DNA from: a bacterium
GTDB lineage: Bacteria; Vulcanimicrobiota; Xenobia; Xenobiales; JADMJV01
Assembly: GCA_030149525.1 (NCBI GenBank)
Contig: JASBRJ010000092.1
Location: forward strand, 1 to 41,305
Direction: 5' to 3'
Length of the DNA: 41,305 nucleotides
The translations under genes and the position numbers were made by a program. Below the pieces are notes generated by a model. It ran no database searches and was not told where the DNA came from. It worked only from the letters and a program-made list of their open reading frames with translations. Positions 13,084-31,872 of this stretch are shown here, piece by piece (position 1 is the stretch's first letter; the number at the start of each line of letters is the position of its first letter).

Positions 13084-13749
13084 GTGATTTTTAGAAAACG
13101 TCTCAAGTCTCAAATAGTAAGCCTCGTGACCGGTTTCAATCTGGTCTTTGGAACCGCAGCCATTATTCTGGCCTCCAGGAACATGTTTTATTGGGCGGTA
13201 GCCTGTCTGGTGCTGGCCATGCTTCTCGACGCCTGCGACGGCTATCTGGCCAGAAAATGGGGCGTCTTTTCAGATTTTGGCGCAGAACTCGATTCTCTGG
13301 CCGACCTGACCTCGTTCGTGGTGGCCAACGCTGTCCTCATCTTCTTTTGGTTTCAAGGGCAAGTGAGCGTTGTTCTCCAGGTTCTTGCCGGAATAGTTTT
13401 TCTTTTGGGCGGTGCTTTTCGTTTAGCCCGTTTCAATGTGGAGCCGACCCAGGGCGGGATTTTTCAAGGGATGCCCACCACCGGCGTCGCGATACTCATA
13501 TCGGCCATCTATTTGGCCCACCCCGACCTCGATCCGCTACAAGGCTTGTTCTGGCAAACCACCCTGGGGTTCCTTATGATAAGTAACTTTCGTTATCCCA
13601 AACTCACCAAACTGGGTAAACTTCCCAAGGTGGTTTTCCCCCTCTTCTTCGTCTGTTTGTATCTCAACTTCGCTCTCACTACGGCGCTCGGGTGTCTGGC
13701 TTACGTTATTTCCGGCCCGATTCTCACCCTCAAAACCGGCTCGGACTAG
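13084..13749 (+). CDS. pssA: CDP-diacylglycerol-serine O-phosphatidyltransferase (PS synthase)
   Basis: A 221-residue integral membrane enzyme of the CDP-alcohol phosphatidyltransferase family that would make phosphatidylserine from CDP-diacylglycerol and L-serine. The family signature DGx2ARx8Gx3Dx3D is complete: Asp52, Gly53, Ala56, Arg57, Gly66, Asp70 and Asp74. Several hydrophobic helices follow, with GAFRLARFNV typical of PssA. GTG 13084 is chosen because GGGAAGG lies eight bases upstream; GTG 13051 would add 11 residues. The neighbour that converges on it encodes PS decarboxylase, which supports PS as the product. Confidence 0.88.
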   Translation: MIFRKRLKSQIVSLVTGFNLVFGTAAIILASRNMFYWAVACLVLAMLLDACDGYLARKWGVFSDFGAELDSLADLTSFVVANAVLIFFWFQGQVSVVLQVLAGIVFLLGGAFRLARFNVEPTQGGIFQGMPTTGVAILISAIYLAHPDLDPLQGLFWQTTLGFLMISNFRYPKLTKLGKLPKVVFPLFFVCLYLNFALTTALGCLAYVISGPILTLKTGSD

Positions 13750-13781
13750 AAGACTTCGGAAACGACGCCTCAAGACACATG

Positions 13782-13814
13782 AAAAAAGGCTTCCCACTTG
13801 GGGAAGCCTTTTTT
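13782..13814. terminator. Bidirectional terminator between pssA and the PS decarboxylase fusion
   Basis: AAAAAAGGCTTCCC and GGGAAGCCTTTTTT form a perfect 14-bp inverted repeat around ACTTG. It has a U-run in both directions, so it can serve both convergent genes. Confidence 0.93.
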
Positions 13815-13845
13815 CGTTTGCGAATCGGGACGAGCCCGATTTTCA

Positions 13846-15177
13846 CTATTGTTCGATAAACCGGGCAATCGGCGTGCGACCGGCGAGAACTTTGTCTCCC
13901 TGGCTGACCAGCACTTCTACCTTGTCCTTGGGAAGATAGATATCGGTTCGCGAACCAAAGCGAATCATTCCGAATCTTTCTCCTTGGGTCAGGAGTTCTC
14001 CACGTTGGCACCAGGTGAAGATCTTGCGAGCAACCACGCCGCTCCTCTGAGCGATGGCACATCGACCTTGTTCGTTTTCTAGAACGATGTAGCTGGAGTC
14101 GTTGTCTTCGGCGCTGCCCAGGAATGCCGGCGAAAATCCCCCGGGTTCGTCCCATCGGTCGACGACTCGACCGGCAACCGGAGCGCGGTTGATGTGAACG
14201 TCGGCTACCGAGAGGAAAATCTCAATGCGGGTCCAGTTCTCGTCTCCCAGGCGCGGGTGACGGCTATCTCGAATTCCGATGATGTGGCCGTCGGCAGCGG
14301 AGAGGCAAAGTTCTTTGTTGGCCACCACGAGACGCTTGGGATCCCGGTGGAACCAGGCCGCGAACCCGGCCATAGCCATGGGGATCTGCCAGCCGCGTCT
14401 GCCGGACATCTTCCAAGCCATTCCTGCTCCCAGAAAAGCTCCCACGACCGGCATACCGTCTGTACAAAAGGAGAAGGGGCCGATACTCACTCGACGTCGT
14501 TCTGGATCTGGTTTCATTCCTATAGCTGCCTCCGGTGCAGGTTGTTCGAATCTCAAAGATCTCACCACGGCGGGCGGGAAGTTGGAGCGGATCACTTCGC
14601 TTCGAAACTCGAAGGTTTCCAACATATCTCGAATTTGGTCGCTCACTTGCTCGTAGCGCTCGTCTTTGTGGACAGGCTGCAGGGCATCTCGAATATCTCG
14701 GAAGTAAGCGTACTCGATATAGGTAAGAGAGCCACCCGGTTTGAGGAGAAACTTGTAGTGCCCGATCACTTTCTTAAGGATGTCACTATCGAGAGTTGTG
14801 AAAGGTATGGAGGAGATGATGATGTCGAAGTCGTTCTCCGTGCCAAGGTCGGTAACGTCGCCCATGTAGAAGTCTACCTGGTCGACGCGGGCTGCGAACT
14901 TGGGCTCCTCTTCGAACCGTTTCTTGACATAATTAAGAAAGCTCTCGTTGAGGTCGCACACTGTGAGGTGATCCTCGTCGGTCATGGCTTCCAGAATCGC
15001 CTCGGTCACGGGGCCTGTCCCACACCCCACTTCCAGGATTCGTTTGGGGCCGCGCTTACGTCGAATCTCCGAACACAGAGACCGAGCGGCGGGGTAGCCG
15101 GTGGGGAAAACGGCACCGATATCACTGAAACCGTTGCCGAGCTGTTGCAAAAACAAGTACTTATCGCGAAGACTCAT
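13846..15177 (-). CDS. Fusion of phospholipid N-methyltransferase-like domain and phosphatidylserine decarboxylase
   Basis: A 443-residue two-domain enzyme. Residues 1 to about 215 form a class I SAM-dependent methyltransferase: ILEVGCGTG (47-55), an acidic VCDLNESF, and SSIPF (122-126) at the post-II position as in PmtA-type PE N-methyltransferases. Residues about 225-443 form a short-chain PS decarboxylase: FHRDP, SVADVHINRAP (His328) and the self-processing RFGSRTD at Gly408-Ser409, so cleavage would give a pyruvoyl alpha chain of about 35 residues while the methyltransferase stays on the beta chain. The start is ATG 15177 (a TTG at 15192 is the alternative). Substrate PS is inferred from the convergent pssA; PE methylation, leading to monomethyl-PE or phosphatidylcholine, is inferred. 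Confidence 0.85.
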   Translation of the reverse strand: MSLRDKYLFLQQLGNGFSDIGAVFPTGYPAARSLCSEIRRKRGPKRILEVGCGTGPVTEAILEAMTDEDHLTVCDLNESFLNYVKKRFEEEPKFAARVDQVDFYMGDVTDLGTENDFDIIISSIPFTTLDSDILKKVIGHYKFLLKPGGSLTYIEYAYFRDIRDALQPVHKDERYEQVSDQIRDMLETFEFRSEVIRSNFPPAVVRSLRFEQPAPEAAIGMKPDPERRRVSIGPFSFCTDGMPVVGAFLGAGMAWKMSGRRGWQIPMAMAGFAAWFHRDPKRLVVANKELCLSAADGHIIGIRDSRHPRLGDENWTRIEIFLSVADVHINRAPVAGRVVDRWDEPGGFSPAFLGSAEDNDSSYIVLENEQGRCAIAQRSGVVARKIFTWCQRGELLTQGERFGMIRFGSRTDIYLPKDKVEVLVSQGDKVLAGRTPIARFIEQ

Positions 15178-23094: not shown

Positions 23095-24747
23095 TCAAAG
23101 GATTTGCGCAAGGATGTGAGCACCCGTTTCGATGACCCATCTGGCCGGTTCCAGCAGCACTTGGGAAAGGATCGTGCCTATCAGCATACTGATTATGAGG
23201 AGAATACCCATAGCGTAGACATCTTTCGCCGGTCTTTTCTCATCCAGGGTTTCCTGGGTTATCACCGCCGCCGTGGGATCGACGATGAGACCCAGGGCGA
23301 TAGTGGCAAAACCGTTGACCACGGAAGAGAGAAGGCTTGCCGTGCGCTCCAAGTCGGGAACGGCGGCTCCGGCGTAGACGGATGCCACCACTCCTACGGT
23401 GTGGATACCGATAACGAAGACATTGGCCAGGATGAAGGTTTTGGGAATCCTTTGAAAGTCGCTGACCGTTAGACCGAACATGGAGGGCCTTCGAAGGCAG
23501 CGGACCACGGCGCCCCAGTTGGAAGGGTTTAAGAGCGCGACCAGGACGGCGTGGATAGATCCCATTTTATCGGTCTTTTGGATGGCCTTGTCATAGACTT
23601 CCACGAGAGTCGGCATACAGAGCCAACTTAGGAACGCCCCTAGGCTCGAACCCATGAGCACCCAACGTAGACTGTGAGCGAGATCTGGTAGACCTAGCAA
23701 AGGATTTGAGACCACATGATCGGAGATAGCACCTATCATCGGAGCGAACACTTGTTGCCCCAGACGGGCGATGAGAAAGAAGAAATTGTAAACCGCCACA
23801 GCGGTGGCGGCCCGACTGGTTCTGACGGCAGAAATTCTGGATGTATACGTGGTTGAGGCCAGAAAGGCAAAGCTGAGGTTGAACAGCACGATGACCCAGA
23901 GGTGGTTGTTCATGGCCTCACCCTGTTCTCCTAGTGCTTTGGCGGCCACTCTGATGAGGGCGGCTGCGGGGTTTAACATCACCAGTCCGAGAACTCCACC
24001 GAGGAAGTTGCCCATAGCCAGGTGGACTGCGGTGATATCCACATGCTTTTCAGGACGTTCCCCTTTGATGGCCTGGTCGGTGATAACAGCGGCCTTCGGA
24101 TCGACCCAAACGGAGAAGGCGATGGCCGCGAAGGCGTTGACAAGGCCGGAGAGCAAGACGGCTGTTTGCTCCATTCCCGGTAACTCGGCGCTGACCAAAA
24201 GAGCTGCCATAACCCCAACGGTCCAGACCGCCGTGGCAAAGACGTTGGCCAGTAAGAATCCGGCAGGGATCCCGTCCAGGTGGAATAGCTTGACTCCGAG
24301 GTTGCTGGGCCGCCGGATCGCTCCCAGAATCACTTTCCAGGCCTGGGGCCGGGCCAGCCGCATCAAGGCGCGAGCCAGAGATTGACGATAGTCTAAACAC
24401 TGGATTCCCCGTCGGTAGATCTCCACAAATGTGCTCAGAAGAATCCAGCTGGCCAGCCCCCCGAGCGCTGAACCAAGAATGACCCAACGAAGCTGACCAG
24501 CCAGGATTCCAGTGCTGCCCGAGTTCGCTGCAGTATCGACGAACTTGGCCATCAAGGGGGCGTAGAATAGGTTGGCAAACCTGGTCAACATAAAGAAAAA
24601 GTTGGCCATGGTGAAGGCCAACATGACTTTGGAAGTCTTAACCGCCGCCGGTCGGGCGGCAATATTCAGGCTGGTGGCGAGAGCCACTACACCTGCGATG
24701 AAGGATATGAAGACCAGACTGGGGTCGGCTAATAAACTGAAATCCAC
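23095..24747 (-). CDS. Tandemly duplicated Amj-type lipid II flippase (double length)
   Basis: A 550-residue membrane protein formed of two Amj/DUF2837-like halves (about 1-275 and 280-550); single Amj proteins are about 270 residues. The halves repeat the same landmarks at an offset near 273: AVKTSK and AVRTSR, NFFFMLTRFAN and NFFFLIARLGQ, LRWVILGSALGG (from 87) and LRWVLMGSSLGA (from 360), LLANVF and ILANVF, and VDPKAAVITDQ (from 216) and VDPTAAVITQE. Amj is the alternate lipid II flippase found beside or instead of MurJ; its role here is inferred from family only. Each half has about six hydrophobic helices. ATG 24747. Confidence 0.8.
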   Translation of the reverse strand: MDFSLLADPSLVFISFIAGVVALATSLNIAARPAAVKTSKVMLAFTMANFFFMLTRFANLFYAPLMAKFVDTAANSGSTGILAGQLRWVILGSALGGLASWILLSTFVEIYRRGIQCLDYRQSLARALMRLARPQAWKVILGAIRRPSNLGVKLFHLDGIPAGFLLANVFATAVWTVGVMAALLVSAELPGMEQTAVLLSGLVNAFAAIAFSVWVDPKAAVITDQAIKGERPEKHVDITAVHLAMGNFLGGVLGLVMLNPAAALIRVAAKALGEQGEAMNNHLWVIVLFNLSFAFLASTTYTSRISAVRTSRAATAVAVYNFFFLIARLGQQVFAPMIGAISDHVVSNPLLGLPDLAHSLRWVLMGSSLGAFLSWLCMPTLVEVYDKAIQKTDKMGSIHAVLVALLNPSNWGAVVRCLRRPSMFGLTVSDFQRIPKTFILANVFVIGIHTVGVVASVYAGAAVPDLERTASLLSSVVNGFATIALGLIVDPTAAVITQETLDEKRPAKDVYAMGILLIISMLIGTILSQVLLEPARWVIETGAHILAQIL

Positions 24748-27462: not shown

Positions 27463-30400
27463 ATGAAAGACGACTATAAGGGAGTCGTGATCGGCATAGG
27501 AGCTTCAGCTGGAGGAATTCCTGCCTTGCTGACCATGCTCAAGGCCAAGCCATCTCTTCAGTGTGCCTTTATTGTCGTTTCTCACTTAGGAGAGGCTCGA
27601 AGCCATCTCGTCGAGACCCTGGCCTCTGCAGTCTCTTATCGAGTGGAATGGGCTTCCTACGGCAGAAGTCTCGAGCCCGGTACGGTTCTCGTTTCGCCCC
27701 CCCAACAAACAGTGGAGTTTTCCGAGGACGGAACACTCAAGCTTCGTCCTGTGGAGAAACCGGCCATGTTTCCCATCGACTCTTTCTTTCAGAGCCTGGG
27801 CGAACGGTTCGGCAAACGAGCTCTGGCCGTCGTGCTTTCCGGTGGAGGGAGTGACGGCAGTAACGGAGTCCGAACAGTCAAGCAAAAAGAAGGTTTGGTG
27901 ATCGTCCAGGAACCGGACACCTGTGAGTTTCCGGACATGCCTTGCAACTCTATACGCACGGGGATCGTGGACGAGATTCTGGCGCCCGGTCAGATCCTTG
28001 AGGTTATCCAGGGATACGATCGAAACCGTCATCTTGGGCTTCCTCCCGTGGACCTCGAAGAAGGCCGGATGGATTCCATTTTACAGAAGCTGTATCGGCT
28101 CACCGGTCACGACTTTTCTTGTTACAAGCCGGCCACGATTGGACGCCGCCTGGAGCGGCGGATGGGCCTGCTTTCCATCGACACCTTGAAGGCCTATGAA
28201 CAGCGTTTGGAAGAAGACCAGACGGAGGCTCAGAAGCTCGTCCATGAGCTTCGAATCGGAGTGACCAGTTTTTTTCGTGACCCGGAAATCTGGGATCACC
28301 TGGCTTCTGAGATTCTCGGGCCACTGGTGGATGAGAGGGATTGGAGATCGGTTTTAAGAGTGTGGGTGACCGCTTGTTCGAGCGGTGAGGAAGCCTACAC
28401 CGTAGCCTGTCTTCTGGCCGATCTCCTAGAAAGTAAAGAACGCCCTCTGAATTTTCAGGTTTTTGCCACCGATATTGATGGCGATGCACTGGCGCGGGGA
28501 AGAGAGGGGGTTTATACCATCAATCTTTTGTCCGATGTGCCGGAAAGGTTTCACCGCTATTTCGAAATTGAAGATTCCCACTTTCGAGCTCGAGACGTTC
28601 TTCGAGACCGGATTCTGTTCTCGTCCCACAACCTGATCACCGACCCTCCATTTTCGAACCTCGATCTGGTGTGCTGTCGCAATTTTCTCATCTATCTATC
28701 TCGTTCTACTCAGGACAGGTTAATGGGGATTCTCCACTATGCGCTTCAGGCAGACGGAGTGCTTGTACTTGGTACCAGTGAGAGTATTAGCGAAGCCGGG
28801 GCTCGTTTCACCAATCTATCGACCAAGCACCGGACCTATCGAAAGAACAAAGGAGTTCGGGGCAGTCTACCCGCCCTCACCTCGTTGGGTCATGAGGTGC
28901 GAATCGATGAAATTCAGCGCCTGAGTAGCCGCCAACAACCGACCTTCGACGAGATGGTCACCAGCACATTGATCCGGGCTTTCGTACCGGCCACTGTGCT
29001 TCTGAATCAAGATTACAGGATTCTTTATCACCAGGGAGACACCGATCTCTTCTTAACCTCTCCTCGAGGGTTACCTACTAACGAGCTGTTCAGTCTTTTG
29101 AGACCGGGTCTGGCTCCCACGGTTCGAGATGTCCTGGATACGGTTCGCGATTCGAAGTCGGAGGTTCGTGACCGAGCGGCACGTCTCAAGAAAGACGAGA
29201 CTCTCTCTCGGGTCCAGTTGTCGGCTTTTCCCGTTCACTCGAAACAGACGGAGGAAACTCTGATCGCGCTTTCCGTTCGTCGAGAAGTCTCCTCCGAGTT
29301 GTCGGCGGAAGTGGATATTCCGGAAGAGCACCAGCGGTTGGTGCAGCAACTCAGTGAAGAGTTAGCTTTGACGAGGCGCGAACTCGAGCAGGCTCTGGAG
29401 CAATCTTCCACCACCTACGATGCTCTTCGGGCGAACAATGAAGAGATGCTCTCCATGAACGAGGAGCTGCAGGCTAGCAATGAGGAGCTTGAGACCCACA
29501 AAGAAGAGTTGCAGGCGCTTAATGAAGAACTCTCCACGGTCAATAGCGAGCTGCGCGACTACGTGGGGCGCCTGGAGGACGCCAACAACGACCTTTCCAA
29601 CTTTGTCTCCGGCAGCGATGTGGCCACCCTTTTTCTCGATTCCGACCTCAGTATTCGACAATTCACACCGGCTATCGAAGGGATCTACGGGATTTCCGAA
29701 TCAGATCTGGGCCGTAAACTCAGCGTGTTCTCCTCCCCTGTGAAGGACCCGGAACTCTTTGAGGAGGCTTCTGCCGTCCTGACCGACCTCCAACGAAGAG
29801 AGGCAACTGTTGAACGCGATGACGGCCGCTGGTTTCTGCGACGGATTTCCCCTTATCGCACCCAAGAAGGACAGGTGGAAGGGCTGGTCCTAACCTATTC
29901 GGATATTACGGAGCTTGTGCGGGCCCAAAAAGCTCTTGCCGAGCAAGCCCAAAGCCTGGAACTCACCGTGGAAGAGCGGACTCGCGAGCTGAATTCTATT
30001 CTTGAGAACGCACCGGACGTCATTGCCCGTTTTGATAGAGAACTCAGGCATATCTTCGTGAACGCTAAGGCCGAGAAGATCACAGGGCTAAAAAAAGAGG
30101 ACTTCATCGGCAAAACCAACGTTGAATTGGGATGGCCTGAGGAGTTGAACCGACTGTGGGCTGAGAAGATGCACGAAGTTTTCGAGTCTGGAGAAGTCGT
30201 CGATGCCGCTTTCGATTTTTTCGACAAGAGTTTCCTGGCCCGAATCGTCCCGGAGTTCAATGATCAGGGCGAGGTTAAGACGATTCTCTGCATAACGCGG
30301 GACATGACGGAACTTCGCGAGGCTCAGAAAACCGTCGAGCGCAGTGAGCGTCGATTGAGGGCGACCTTCCAGCAAGCAGTAGTCGGATTCTGTCACTTGA

Positions 30401-31872
30401 GTCTTGACGGAGAGCTAATTCGCTCCAATCCGAAAGCCAGGGCGCTTCTGGAAATAACAAGCGATACGGCACAAAGAGTTCGTCTTGAAGAGCGCTTGCA
30501 TCCCGACGATGTGGAAGTCTTCAAGGTGGGCTTTCAGCGAGTCGCCCGAGGTCAGCTTGAGAGATTTGAGTCGGAGCTTCGTTGTGGGATCCGGGAGGGA
30601 CACCGATGGTTGCGGCTGACCCTTTCCTTGGTGTCTCACAATATTGAAGAGCAGCCCTATCTCTTCTTGGTAATAGAGGATATTCAGAGTCGTCGGCAGG
30701 CGGAACTTGAGACTGAATCTCTTAAGGAGAAGTTAGCTCAAGGCCAAAGGTTGGAGCAACTCGGTCTCATGGCAGGCGGAGTGGCCCACGATTTCAACAA
30801 TCTTCTAGTGGGGATCGTCGGCTCGGCCAGTCTCGCTCTTGAGAATCTGCCTGAGGGTTCCCCTGTCTATCAAGATGTTGAGATGGTTCTGGAGGCGGGC
30901 CGTCGAGCCGGAGACCTCGCCCGTCAGATGCTGGCCTACGCCGGTAAAGCGACCGTGGAGGTTGTTCCGGTCGATCCCGGGCAAGCCATCGAGGAGATGA
31001 TTCCTCTCTTGAACTGCCTTTCCCGGAACGGCTCTAAAGTGGAGGCGGAGATTTCGGAAGTCGACTGCTGCGTGCGACTGGACAGCACTCAGTTCCACGA
31101 AGCCATGACGAATCTTGTTGTCAACGCTTCCGAATGCTACGGACCGGAAGGTGGACGGATCCTTATTCGATTTGACTGCGTGCCTACTCCTGAGGATGAG
31201 CCGGAGTCTTTTCAGGTCTTCCCCGAGTCGGAACTGAGTAAAAAGTATGCGCGGGTGAGAGTTTCCGATCAGGGTCCGGGCATGACTCAAGAGGTTCTAG
31301 ATAGAATCATGGACCCGTTTTACTCCACCAAAAGTGACGGTCGCGGTCTTGGGGTGCCGATGGTGGTCGGTTTTACCAAAGCCCACAACGGTCTGCTTCG
31401 AGTCATGTCTTCTCCGGGATTGGGGACGACTTTCGAAATCCTCATTCCCTGTTTAGAAGGCAAGGCAAGCTCGCCGTCTGCAAGTTCCGAGGTTCGAACC
31501 ATCTCTCGACAATTTTCCGGCGACGCACTGGTAGTGGACGACGAGGAATTGGTGCGGGTCCTCATGTCCCGTCAGTTGCAGCGACTTGGTTTGCAAGTGA
31601 CTCTAGCTCTGAACGGGACACAGGCCATTGAGATTGGATCTCGACGCAGTTTCGATTTGGTCATCCTGGACCTAAGCATGCCGGATATCGGGGGGGCGGA
31701 GGTCCTCCAGGCGCTCCGGGAGCACCATCCTGAGCTTCCGGTTGTTATTTCGAGCGGCTATGACCGTGAGGAAGTTCTTGATCGGCTACCCCGTGACGAG
31801 AACATCGCTTTCTTGCCGAAACCCTATTCCATCATACAGCTCTACGGTGTGGTAGAGAATCTCATCGGCTAA
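27463..31872 (+). CDS. CheB-CheR-PAS-histidine kinase-receiver hybrid (1469 residues)
   Basis: A giant cytoplasmic signalling protein. Domain order: CheB methylesterase (about 1-190) with Ser15 in GASAGG, His41 and Asp131 in SGGGSDG; CheR methyltransferase (about 205-460) with YKPATIGRRLERR, RIGVTSFFRDP and VWVTACSSGEEAY; a coiled coil (about 625-710); PAS domains (about 715-830, 850-965, 970-1080); a histidine kinase with His1109 in GGVAHDFNNLL; HATPase with DQGPGM and GRGLGVP; and a C-terminal receiver with Asp1359/Asp1360 and phospho-acceptor Asp1403. There is no transmembrane segment and no receptor gene beside it, so its input is unknown. GAGGGGAGAG gives a strong ATG start. A single gene between the Qng1 and porin genes. 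Confidence 0.9.
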   Translation: MKDDYKGVVIGIGASAGGIPALLTMLKAKPSLQCAFIVVSHLGEARSHLVETLASAVSYRVEWASYGRSLEPGTVLVSPPQQTVEFSEDGTLKLRPVEKPAMFPIDSFFQSLGERFGKRALAVVLSGGGSDGSNGVRTVKQKEGLVIVQEPDTCEFPDMPCNSIRTGIVDEILAPGQILEVIQGYDRNRHLGLPPVDLEEGRMDSILQKLYRLTGHDFSCYKPATIGRRLERRMGLLSIDTLKAYEQRLEEDQTEAQKLVHELRIGVTSFFRDPEIWDHLASEILGPLVDERDWRSVLRVWVTACSSGEEAYTVACLLADLLESKERPLNFQVFATDIDGDALARGREGVYTINLLSDVPERFHRYFEIEDSHFRARDVLRDRILFSSHNLITDPPFSNLDLVCCRNFLIYLSRSTQDRLMGILHYALQADGVLVLGTSESISEAGARFTNLSTKHRTYRKNKGVRGSLPALTSLGHEVRIDEIQRLSSRQQPTFDEMVTSTLIRAFVPATVLLNQDYRILYHQGDTDLFLTSPRGLPTNELFSLLRPGLAPTVRDVLDTVRDSKSEVRDRAARLKKDETLSRVQLSAFPVHSKQTEETLIALSVRREVSSELSAEVDIPEEHQRLVQQLSEELALTRRELEQALEQSSTTYDALRANNEEMLSMNEELQASNEELETHKEELQALNEELSTVNSELRDYVGRLEDANNDLSNFVSGSDVATLFLDSDLSIRQFTPAIEGIYGISESDLGRKLSVFSSPVKDPELFEEASAVLTDLQRREATVERDDGRWFLRRISPYRTQEGQVEGLVLTYSDITELVRAQKALAEQAQSLELTVEERTRELNSILENAPDVIARFDRELRHIFVNAKAEKITGLKKEDFIGKTNVELGWPEELNRLWAEKMHEVFESGEVVDAAFDFFDKSFLARIVPEFNDQGEVKTILCITRDMTELREAQKTVERSERRLRATFQQAVVGFCHLSLDGELIRSNPKARALLEITSDTAQRVRLEERLHPDDVEVFKVGFQRVARGQLERFESELRCGIREGHRWLRLTLSLVSHNIEEQPYLFLVIEDIQSRRQAELETESLKEKLAQGQRLEQLGLMAGGVAHDFNNLLVGIVGSASLALENLPEGSPVYQDVEMVLEAGRRAGDLARQMLAYAGKATVEVVPVDPGQAIEEMIPLLNCLSRNGSKVEAEISEVDCCVRLDSTQFHEAMTNLVVNASECYGPEGGRILIRFDCVPTPEDEPESFQVFPESELSKKYARVRVSDQGPGMTQEVLDRIMDPFYSTKSDGRGLGVPMVVGFTKAHNGLLRVMSSPGLGTTFEILIPCLEGKASSPSASSEVRTISRQFSGDALVVDDEELVRVLMSRQLQRLGLQVTLALNGTQAIEIGSRRSFDLVILDLSMPDIGGAEVLQALREHHPELPVVISSGYDREEVLDRLPRDENIAFLPKPYSIIQLYGVVENLIG

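Follow-up and report, generated by a model that had tools for sequence, protein, structure and literature searches.

A PmtA-like methyltransferase fused to phosphatidylserine decarboxylase in three bacterial phyla and its predicted role in phospholipid methylation

The 41,305-nucleotide stretch of bacterial DNA analysed here, referred to as the window, encodes a 443-residue protein in which a relative of the phospholipid N-methyltransferase PmtA precedes a complete short phosphatidylserine decarboxylase (Psd). The protein is probably a bifunctional enzyme of the phosphatidylethanolamine (PE) pathway whose single self-cleaving chain converts phosphatidylserine (PS) to PE and PE to N-methylated PE, an activity assigned from homology. 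Its architecture, key residues, distribution, synteny, phylogeny and selection signal are established below.

Architecture of the fused gene and its neighbourhood

The locus consists of the fused gene, the convergent gene pssA and a hairpin between them:

13084 to 13749, plus strand: pssA, CDP-diacylglycerol-serine O-phosphatidyltransferase (PS synthase), GTG start; convergent partner of the fused psd
13781 to 13815, no strand assigned: bidirectional terminator-like hairpin between pssA and the fused psd, 15-bp stem
13846 to 15177, minus strand: coding sequence of the fused PmtA-like methyltransferase and Psd, 443 residues, ATG start
13867 to 14367, minus strand: Psd catalytic domain, residues 271–437, including D296 and H328 (PF02666; conservation)
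13951 to 13956, minus strand: Gly408-Ser409, predicted self-cleavage and pyruvoyl-forming site (invariant across fused homologues)
14350 to 14463, minus strand: helices 239–257 and 264–276, probable membrane hairpin between the catalytic parts (DSSP of the AlphaFold2 model; putative membrane role)
14542 to 15177, minus strand: methyltransferase domain, residues 1–212, with a C-terminal PmtA-type N-x-P-P-A motif at residues 199–203 (Pfam; profile match to Agrobacterium PmtA, AtPmtA, PDB 9KO3, E 9.7e-22; AlphaFold2 model)
14710 to 14712, minus strand: Y156, counterpart of AtPmtA Tyr161 (HMM alignment)
15013 to 15033, minus strand: SAM-binding motif E49-V-G-C-G-T-G55, corresponding to AtPmtA residues 58–64 (PMC12139422)

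The fused reading frame runs on the minus strand from the ATG at 15177 to the stop codon at 13848–13846 through 443 uninterrupted codons. Pfam recognises both parts (Methyltransf_25, residues 47–149, E 2.5e-14; PS_Dcarbxylase, residues 271–437, E 5.6e-34), as expected from the first-pass annotation, which had described one frame joining a PmtA-like methyltransferase to a complete Psd. The motifs GCGTG and SSIPF named there occupy residues 51–55 and 122–126, and the Gly-Ser cleavage site, encoded by GGT TCG at positions 13956–13951, is located exactly at residues 408–409. Chance motif matches were dismissed, since the matches span full domains.

The C-terminal half is predicted to be a complete short Psd capable of self-cleavage and PS decarboxylation. 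It scores 118 bits against PF02666, above the curated cut-off of 22, and 182.9 bits against NCBIfam NF003685, marginally under the cut-off of 183. Residues D296, H328, G408 and S409 are present in all 24 tabulated fused sequences, and the fused gene is the sole Psd found in the window's genome. The cleavage site is C-terminal of the methyltransferase, which agrees with the earlier proposal that the latter would be held on the beta chain. Both parts are modelled with confidence by AlphaFold2 (pLDDT 87.6, pTM 0.85), and the two helices that precede the Psd core in the model probably form a membrane hairpin. A structure search with the whole model bore little on the Psd half; E. coli PSD (PDB: 7CNX) appeared in the search with a second model, that of a Salinispora homologue.

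The neighbouring pssA, previously noted as the convergent partner, extends on the plus strand from the GTG at 13084 to a stop codon ending at 13749 and matches CDP-OH_P_transf (2.4e-18) and TIGR00473 (106.9 bits, cut-off 107). The hairpin between the two genes, GAAAAAAGGCTTCCCCAAGTGGGAAGCCTTTTTTC, could terminate the transcription of both. Elsewhere, the window encodes a phage-type tyrosine integrase close to the contig start (931–2049), a 550-residue protein with two Amj (Alternate to MurJ) stretches, an apparent tandem duplication within one chain (23095–24747), and a 1469-residue CheB-CheR-PAS-histidine kinase-response regulator fusion (27463–31872).

The methyltransferase half and its probable substrate

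A profile built from 17 intact methyltransferase domains of relatives was run against the PDB sequences and identifies METHYLTRANSFERASE most closely with Agrobacterium PmtA (PDB: 9KO3), which ranks top with an E-value of 9.7e-22, followed by the next entry at 1.2e-12. The alignment places AtPmtA T36, GxGTG, I159 and Y161 on T26, G51–G55, I154 and Y156 of the window protein, and the equivalents of key AtPmtA residues are T26, D75, D107, S123 (for A128), I154 and Y156. The SAM-binding motif E/D-x-G-x-G-x-G is present as E49-V-G-C-G-T-G55, and the tyrosine is retained by 16 of the 17 intact domains. In the AtPmtA structure, SAM is touched by T36, E84, D106 and A107; full PE methylation depends on Tyr161, whose mutation severely reduces activity, and an alanine mutant of E84 is inactive (PMC12139422). 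E84 is conservatively replaced by D75 in the window protein, and the position of D106 is a serine in several of its relatives. The residue at AtPmtA position 159, Ile or Phe, affects the number of methyl groups added (PMC12139422); I154 is the state of AtPmtA, where it is paired with methylation up to phosphatidylcholine (PC), and is only a hint of how far the window enzyme might proceed.

In the AlphaFold2 model, residues 24–211 superimpose on 9KO3 with a Z-score of 15.7 and an rmsd of 2.8 over 156 residues, and the 26% identity is the highest in the structural-overlay list for this part. Many unrelated class I methyltransferases equal 9KO3 on Z in the Foldseek and VIA lists; therefore, the fold alone does not decide the PmtA identity. 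The single-sequence NCBIfam scan gave CpaM 50.9, BioC 49, OlsG 43.7 and PmtA 41.3 bits, against equivalog cut-offs of 250 bits for PmtA (NF045881) and 350 bits for OlsG (NF041658). By sequence, the domain is thus classed as a relative of PmtA and not as a PmtA equivalog.

The genomic context of unfused homologues bears on the substrate. In a genome from another class of the same phylum (G023), psd and pssA share an overlapping operon with a PmtA-like gene (L173:2495-4202), and in G015, also of this phylum, the methyltransferase gene is followed by psd-pssA on one strand. The methyltransferase gene lies directly before psd or overlaps it in Chloroflexota G232 and Actinomycetes G775 and G432. 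Genes that are separate and adjoining in some genomes and fused in others are a classical sign of a shared pathway. Since the unfused relatives have the methyltransferase, psd and pssA as neighbours, the fusion appears to join pathway partners. Stand-alone close methyltransferases accompany a stand-alone Psd in about 28 of 395 Actinomycetes genomes (L226–L233, L235), which makes these organisms candidates for the synthesis of methyl-PE or PC.

PE is the best-supported substrate because PmtA is the top PDB match of the profile, the tyrosine and the SAM motif are kept, and the three genes are neighbours in unfused relatives. The earlier annotation had allowed that the methyltransferase might act on something else. 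It is unlikely, in our estimate, that the substrate is an ornithine lipid, as for OlsG, or another aminolipid, a quinone or a protein, with the Psd serving as a membrane anchor only. Such a reading could draw on the OlsG scores, which equal or exceed those of PmtA for the window protein and relatives in the NCBIfam scan, on OlsG being the best NCBIfam match of several unfused homologues, and on the scores of BioC and CpaM. However, no quinone, RNA or protein methyltransferase in the PDB comes near PmtA as a match to the profile, the unfused homologues adjoin psd and pssA, and an OlsB-type acyltransferase (PF13444) has no match in the window's genome (G000), which weakens the ornithine-lipid alternative as far as the OlsB-type route, the only one searched, is concerned. 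An alternative substrate is not supported.

With PE as the substrate, the route from CDP-diacylglycerol through PS and PE to methyl-PE that had been proposed for the two genes gains support from the profile match, the kept tyrosine and SAM motif and the unfused gene neighbours. PssA would form PS from CDP-diacylglycerol and serine. The Psd half would cleave itself between G408 and S409 into a beta chain of 408 residues and an alpha chain of 35 residues carrying the N-terminal pyruvoyl group, and the pyruvoyl enzyme would decarboxylate PS to PE. The PmtA-family domain on the beta chain would then transfer methyl groups from SAM to the amine of PE, producing mono-methyl PE and perhaps more highly methylated products. 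The searched literature, open-licence PMC papers, contained no lipid data for Eremiobacterota.

Aspartate is common among active class I methyltransferases at the position equivalent to AtPmtA E84. This matters for the somewhat less probable alternative, which we consider improbable overall, that the methyltransferase half of the window protein is already a scaffold without catalytic function, as in Actinomycetota, which would make the protein a plain Psd. The change of E84 to D75, at a residue whose replacement by alanine inactivates AtPmtA, and the loss of SAM-binding and tyrosine residues in two other lineages would fit this alternative, but the remaining motif residues are all kept, including Y156, and the methyltransferase and Psd parts evolve at equal rates where the methyltransferase is intact.

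Distribution, single origin and decay of the fusion

Homologues were sought in genome contigs with an alignment profile (A2); a single-protein query returned no match. The closest named homologues come from one Candidatus Eremiobacterota MAG and rumen MAGs. Among the 18 genomes of the window's class, all of which were searched, the full-length fusion is present in 10 besides that of the window, all in the window's order. It is severed by contig ends in G003 and G011, was not found in G001 and G012, and Psd stands alone in the sister order (G015, G016). Full-length fusions also occur in Chloroflexota (Candidatus Viridilinea halotolerans L063, Chloroflexi REEB501 L064 and G254), where in G935 the fusion is split across two contigs sharing the residues LGAGWLLRHVRG, and in Actinomycetota (four Glycomyces, two Salinispora and other Micromonosporaceae). 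A full-length match was found in 59 of 61 sampled genomes of Salinispora's family; the fusion is otherwise rare in the samples of 301 Chloroflexota and 395 Actinomycetes genomes. The scan of IMG/VR viral contigs gave no match to the methyltransferase part; 31 contigs (L141–L171) encode distant Psd relatives with 25–29% identity.

An assembly chimera or a frameshift uniting two adjacent genes, a concern of the first-pass annotation that might draw on the separate adjoining genes of relatives, is excluded for practical purposes, because full-length homologues with 32–45% identity, the same domain order, a conserved linker and no internal stop are present in many independent assemblies from three phyla, including Glycomyces and Salinispora isolates.

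A tree of 87 Psd domains unites the fused Psds, 22 in all, in one clade (SH-aLRT 98), and its sister group (support 96) consists of unfused Psds, three of which have a neighbouring methyltransferase gene. The support for one fused clade in the tree of methyltransferase domains is weak (58–64%). The Psd tree points to a single origin of the fusion.

The orientation of pssA distinguishes fused from unfused loci. Where pssA is within reach of a fused gene, it is convergent and downstream, in 15 distinct genomes, with 8–374 bp between the matches; the exception is L069, whose pssA is found 4.7 kb upstream and reads the same way. Among unfused psd loci, all 106 with a close pssA have it co-directional, a count in which some loci were fetched twice; two rows scored as unfused and convergent represent one fused gene severed by a contig end (G003). 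In all three phyla, convergent pssA thus marks the fused clade. No pssA was found within the fetched flanks of the fused psd in Glycomyces, L064 and the rumen genomes. The rumen genomes contain pssA elsewhere. These rumen Eremiobacterota genes, unlinked to psd (G007:C14:1035-1802, G008:C179:1431-2210 and G009:C149:11205-12008), match in two pieces, as if they contained an internal insert.

The methyltransferase has degenerated in part of the clade. The rumen Eremiobacterota fusions (G007, G008, G009, G014) and every Actinomycetota fusion inspected have lost the SAM motif and the tyrosine together, and the four Psd residues are kept in both groups. The decay occurred at least twice, since the Psd tree sets the two groups apart. 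Two genomes are intermediate (G010, G013), with an intact SAM motif and leucine at the tyrosine position; G010 and the related G011 and G012 also have a second, stand-alone PmtA-like gene. A degenerate N-terminal region of about 190 residues, mostly invisible to Pfam, precedes the Psd in L008, L010, L011, L012, L068–L076 and L234, which come from rumen Eremiobacterota, Micromonosporaceae and Glycomyces. Because Pfam does not detect a methyltransferase domain in such proteins (L074, L070, L010 and L011), they readily pass for ordinary Psds whose N-terminus is unassigned. The Salinispora domain was nevertheless modelled by AlphaFold2 as a folded methyltransferase (pLDDT 89, mostly >90), with 9KO3 the second match at a Z-score of 15.0.

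The dN/dS values are simple NG86 counts and are unreliable for deeper pairs. Pairs with an intact methyltransferase have values of 0.06 and 0.27 in this part versus 0.06 and 0.23 in the Psd. The pseudo-methyltransferase of Glycomyces pairs is at 0.14–0.19 (Psd 0.17–0.19), and that of Salinispora-type pairs at 0.24–0.44 (Psd 0.08–0.18), which indicates partly relaxed, persisting constraint. The degenerate domain is thus under purifying selection where measurable, and is predicted to be folded. Reported lipids of actinomycetes fit a working Psd and are only loosely informative: PE is reported and methylated PE unmentioned for Micromonosporaceae near Salinispora (PMC12451618, PMC5754459), and Glycomycetaceae give a mixed picture, PME being reported for Stackebrandtia and PC for some Glycomyces (PMC8289206).

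These observations can be joined into a wider scenario. The fusion probably arose once, from methyltransferase and psd genes that are still neighbours in unfused relatives, and is now distributed over Eremiobacterota, Chloroflexota and Actinomycetota, mostly with convergent pssA. The methyltransferase lost its SAM and catalytic residues in at least two lineages (rumen Eremiobacterota; Glycomyces and Micromonosporaceae) and was retained as a probably folded pseudoenzyme, which presumably serves the folding, membrane placement or control of the decarboxylase. We give about even weight to a bolder version, in which the fusion is ancient, the degenerate domain of nearly all Micromonosporaceae has become a fixed and selected component of Psd that regulates, folds or positions the decarboxylase but no longer catalyses, and the lineage of the window remains active and hands nascent PE directly over to methylation. 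Catalysis, the number of methyl groups added and the role of the degenerate domain are inferred.

Comparison with known systems

No Psd-methyltransferase fusion is described in the open-licence PMC literature searched, in line with the earlier remark that no well-characterised enzyme is built in this way. The ingredients are known; within that literature, neither the architecture nor its convergent pssA nor the repeated decay into a pseudo-methyltransferase seems to have been described. The spread of the fusion, its probable single origin, the pssA orientation and the decay in two lineages go beyond the first-pass annotation. If the proposed activities are correct, a single self-cleaving chain would carry two successive steps of membrane-lipid synthesis, forming a compact factory for PE and methyl-PE and offering a natural system in which to test how membrane enzymes hand over a substrate. 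The fusion state would also predict which uncultured members of Eremiobacterota and Chloroflexota are able to produce N-methylated PE. The unannotated pseudo-methyltransferases of culturable, widely studied actinomycetes (Salinispora, Glycomyces) offer a testable case of an enzyme domain turned into a structural or regulatory part.

The Psd half resembles short-type bacterial and archaeal Psds (TIGR00164 / PRK05305, PF02666) in its catalytic domain, its D, H and GS residues, the hydrophobic helices ahead of the core and the partner pssA. It differs from them in the 212-residue methyltransferase in front, in the convergent rather than co-directional pssA and in belonging to a separate clade. 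The pssA gene matches its family (TIGR00473) with a score marginally under the cut-off, and differs in its orientation relative to psd. The methyltransferase half shares with S-type PmtA of Agrobacterium tumefaciens (PDB: 9KO3, 9KO5; PMC12139422) the ExGxGTG SAM motif, the GAxxPT/S motif, the Tyr161 equivalent, the C-terminal N-x-P-P-A motif and the N-terminal helix, whereas its score well under the PmtA equivalog cut-off, the aspartate in place of E84 and the fusion to the enzyme that makes its putative substrate set it apart. OlsG (NF041658) belongs to the same small group of lipid N-methyltransferases as the window domain, but its substrates are ornithine lipids, and the window domain is far under its cut-off in a genome with no OlsB-type match.
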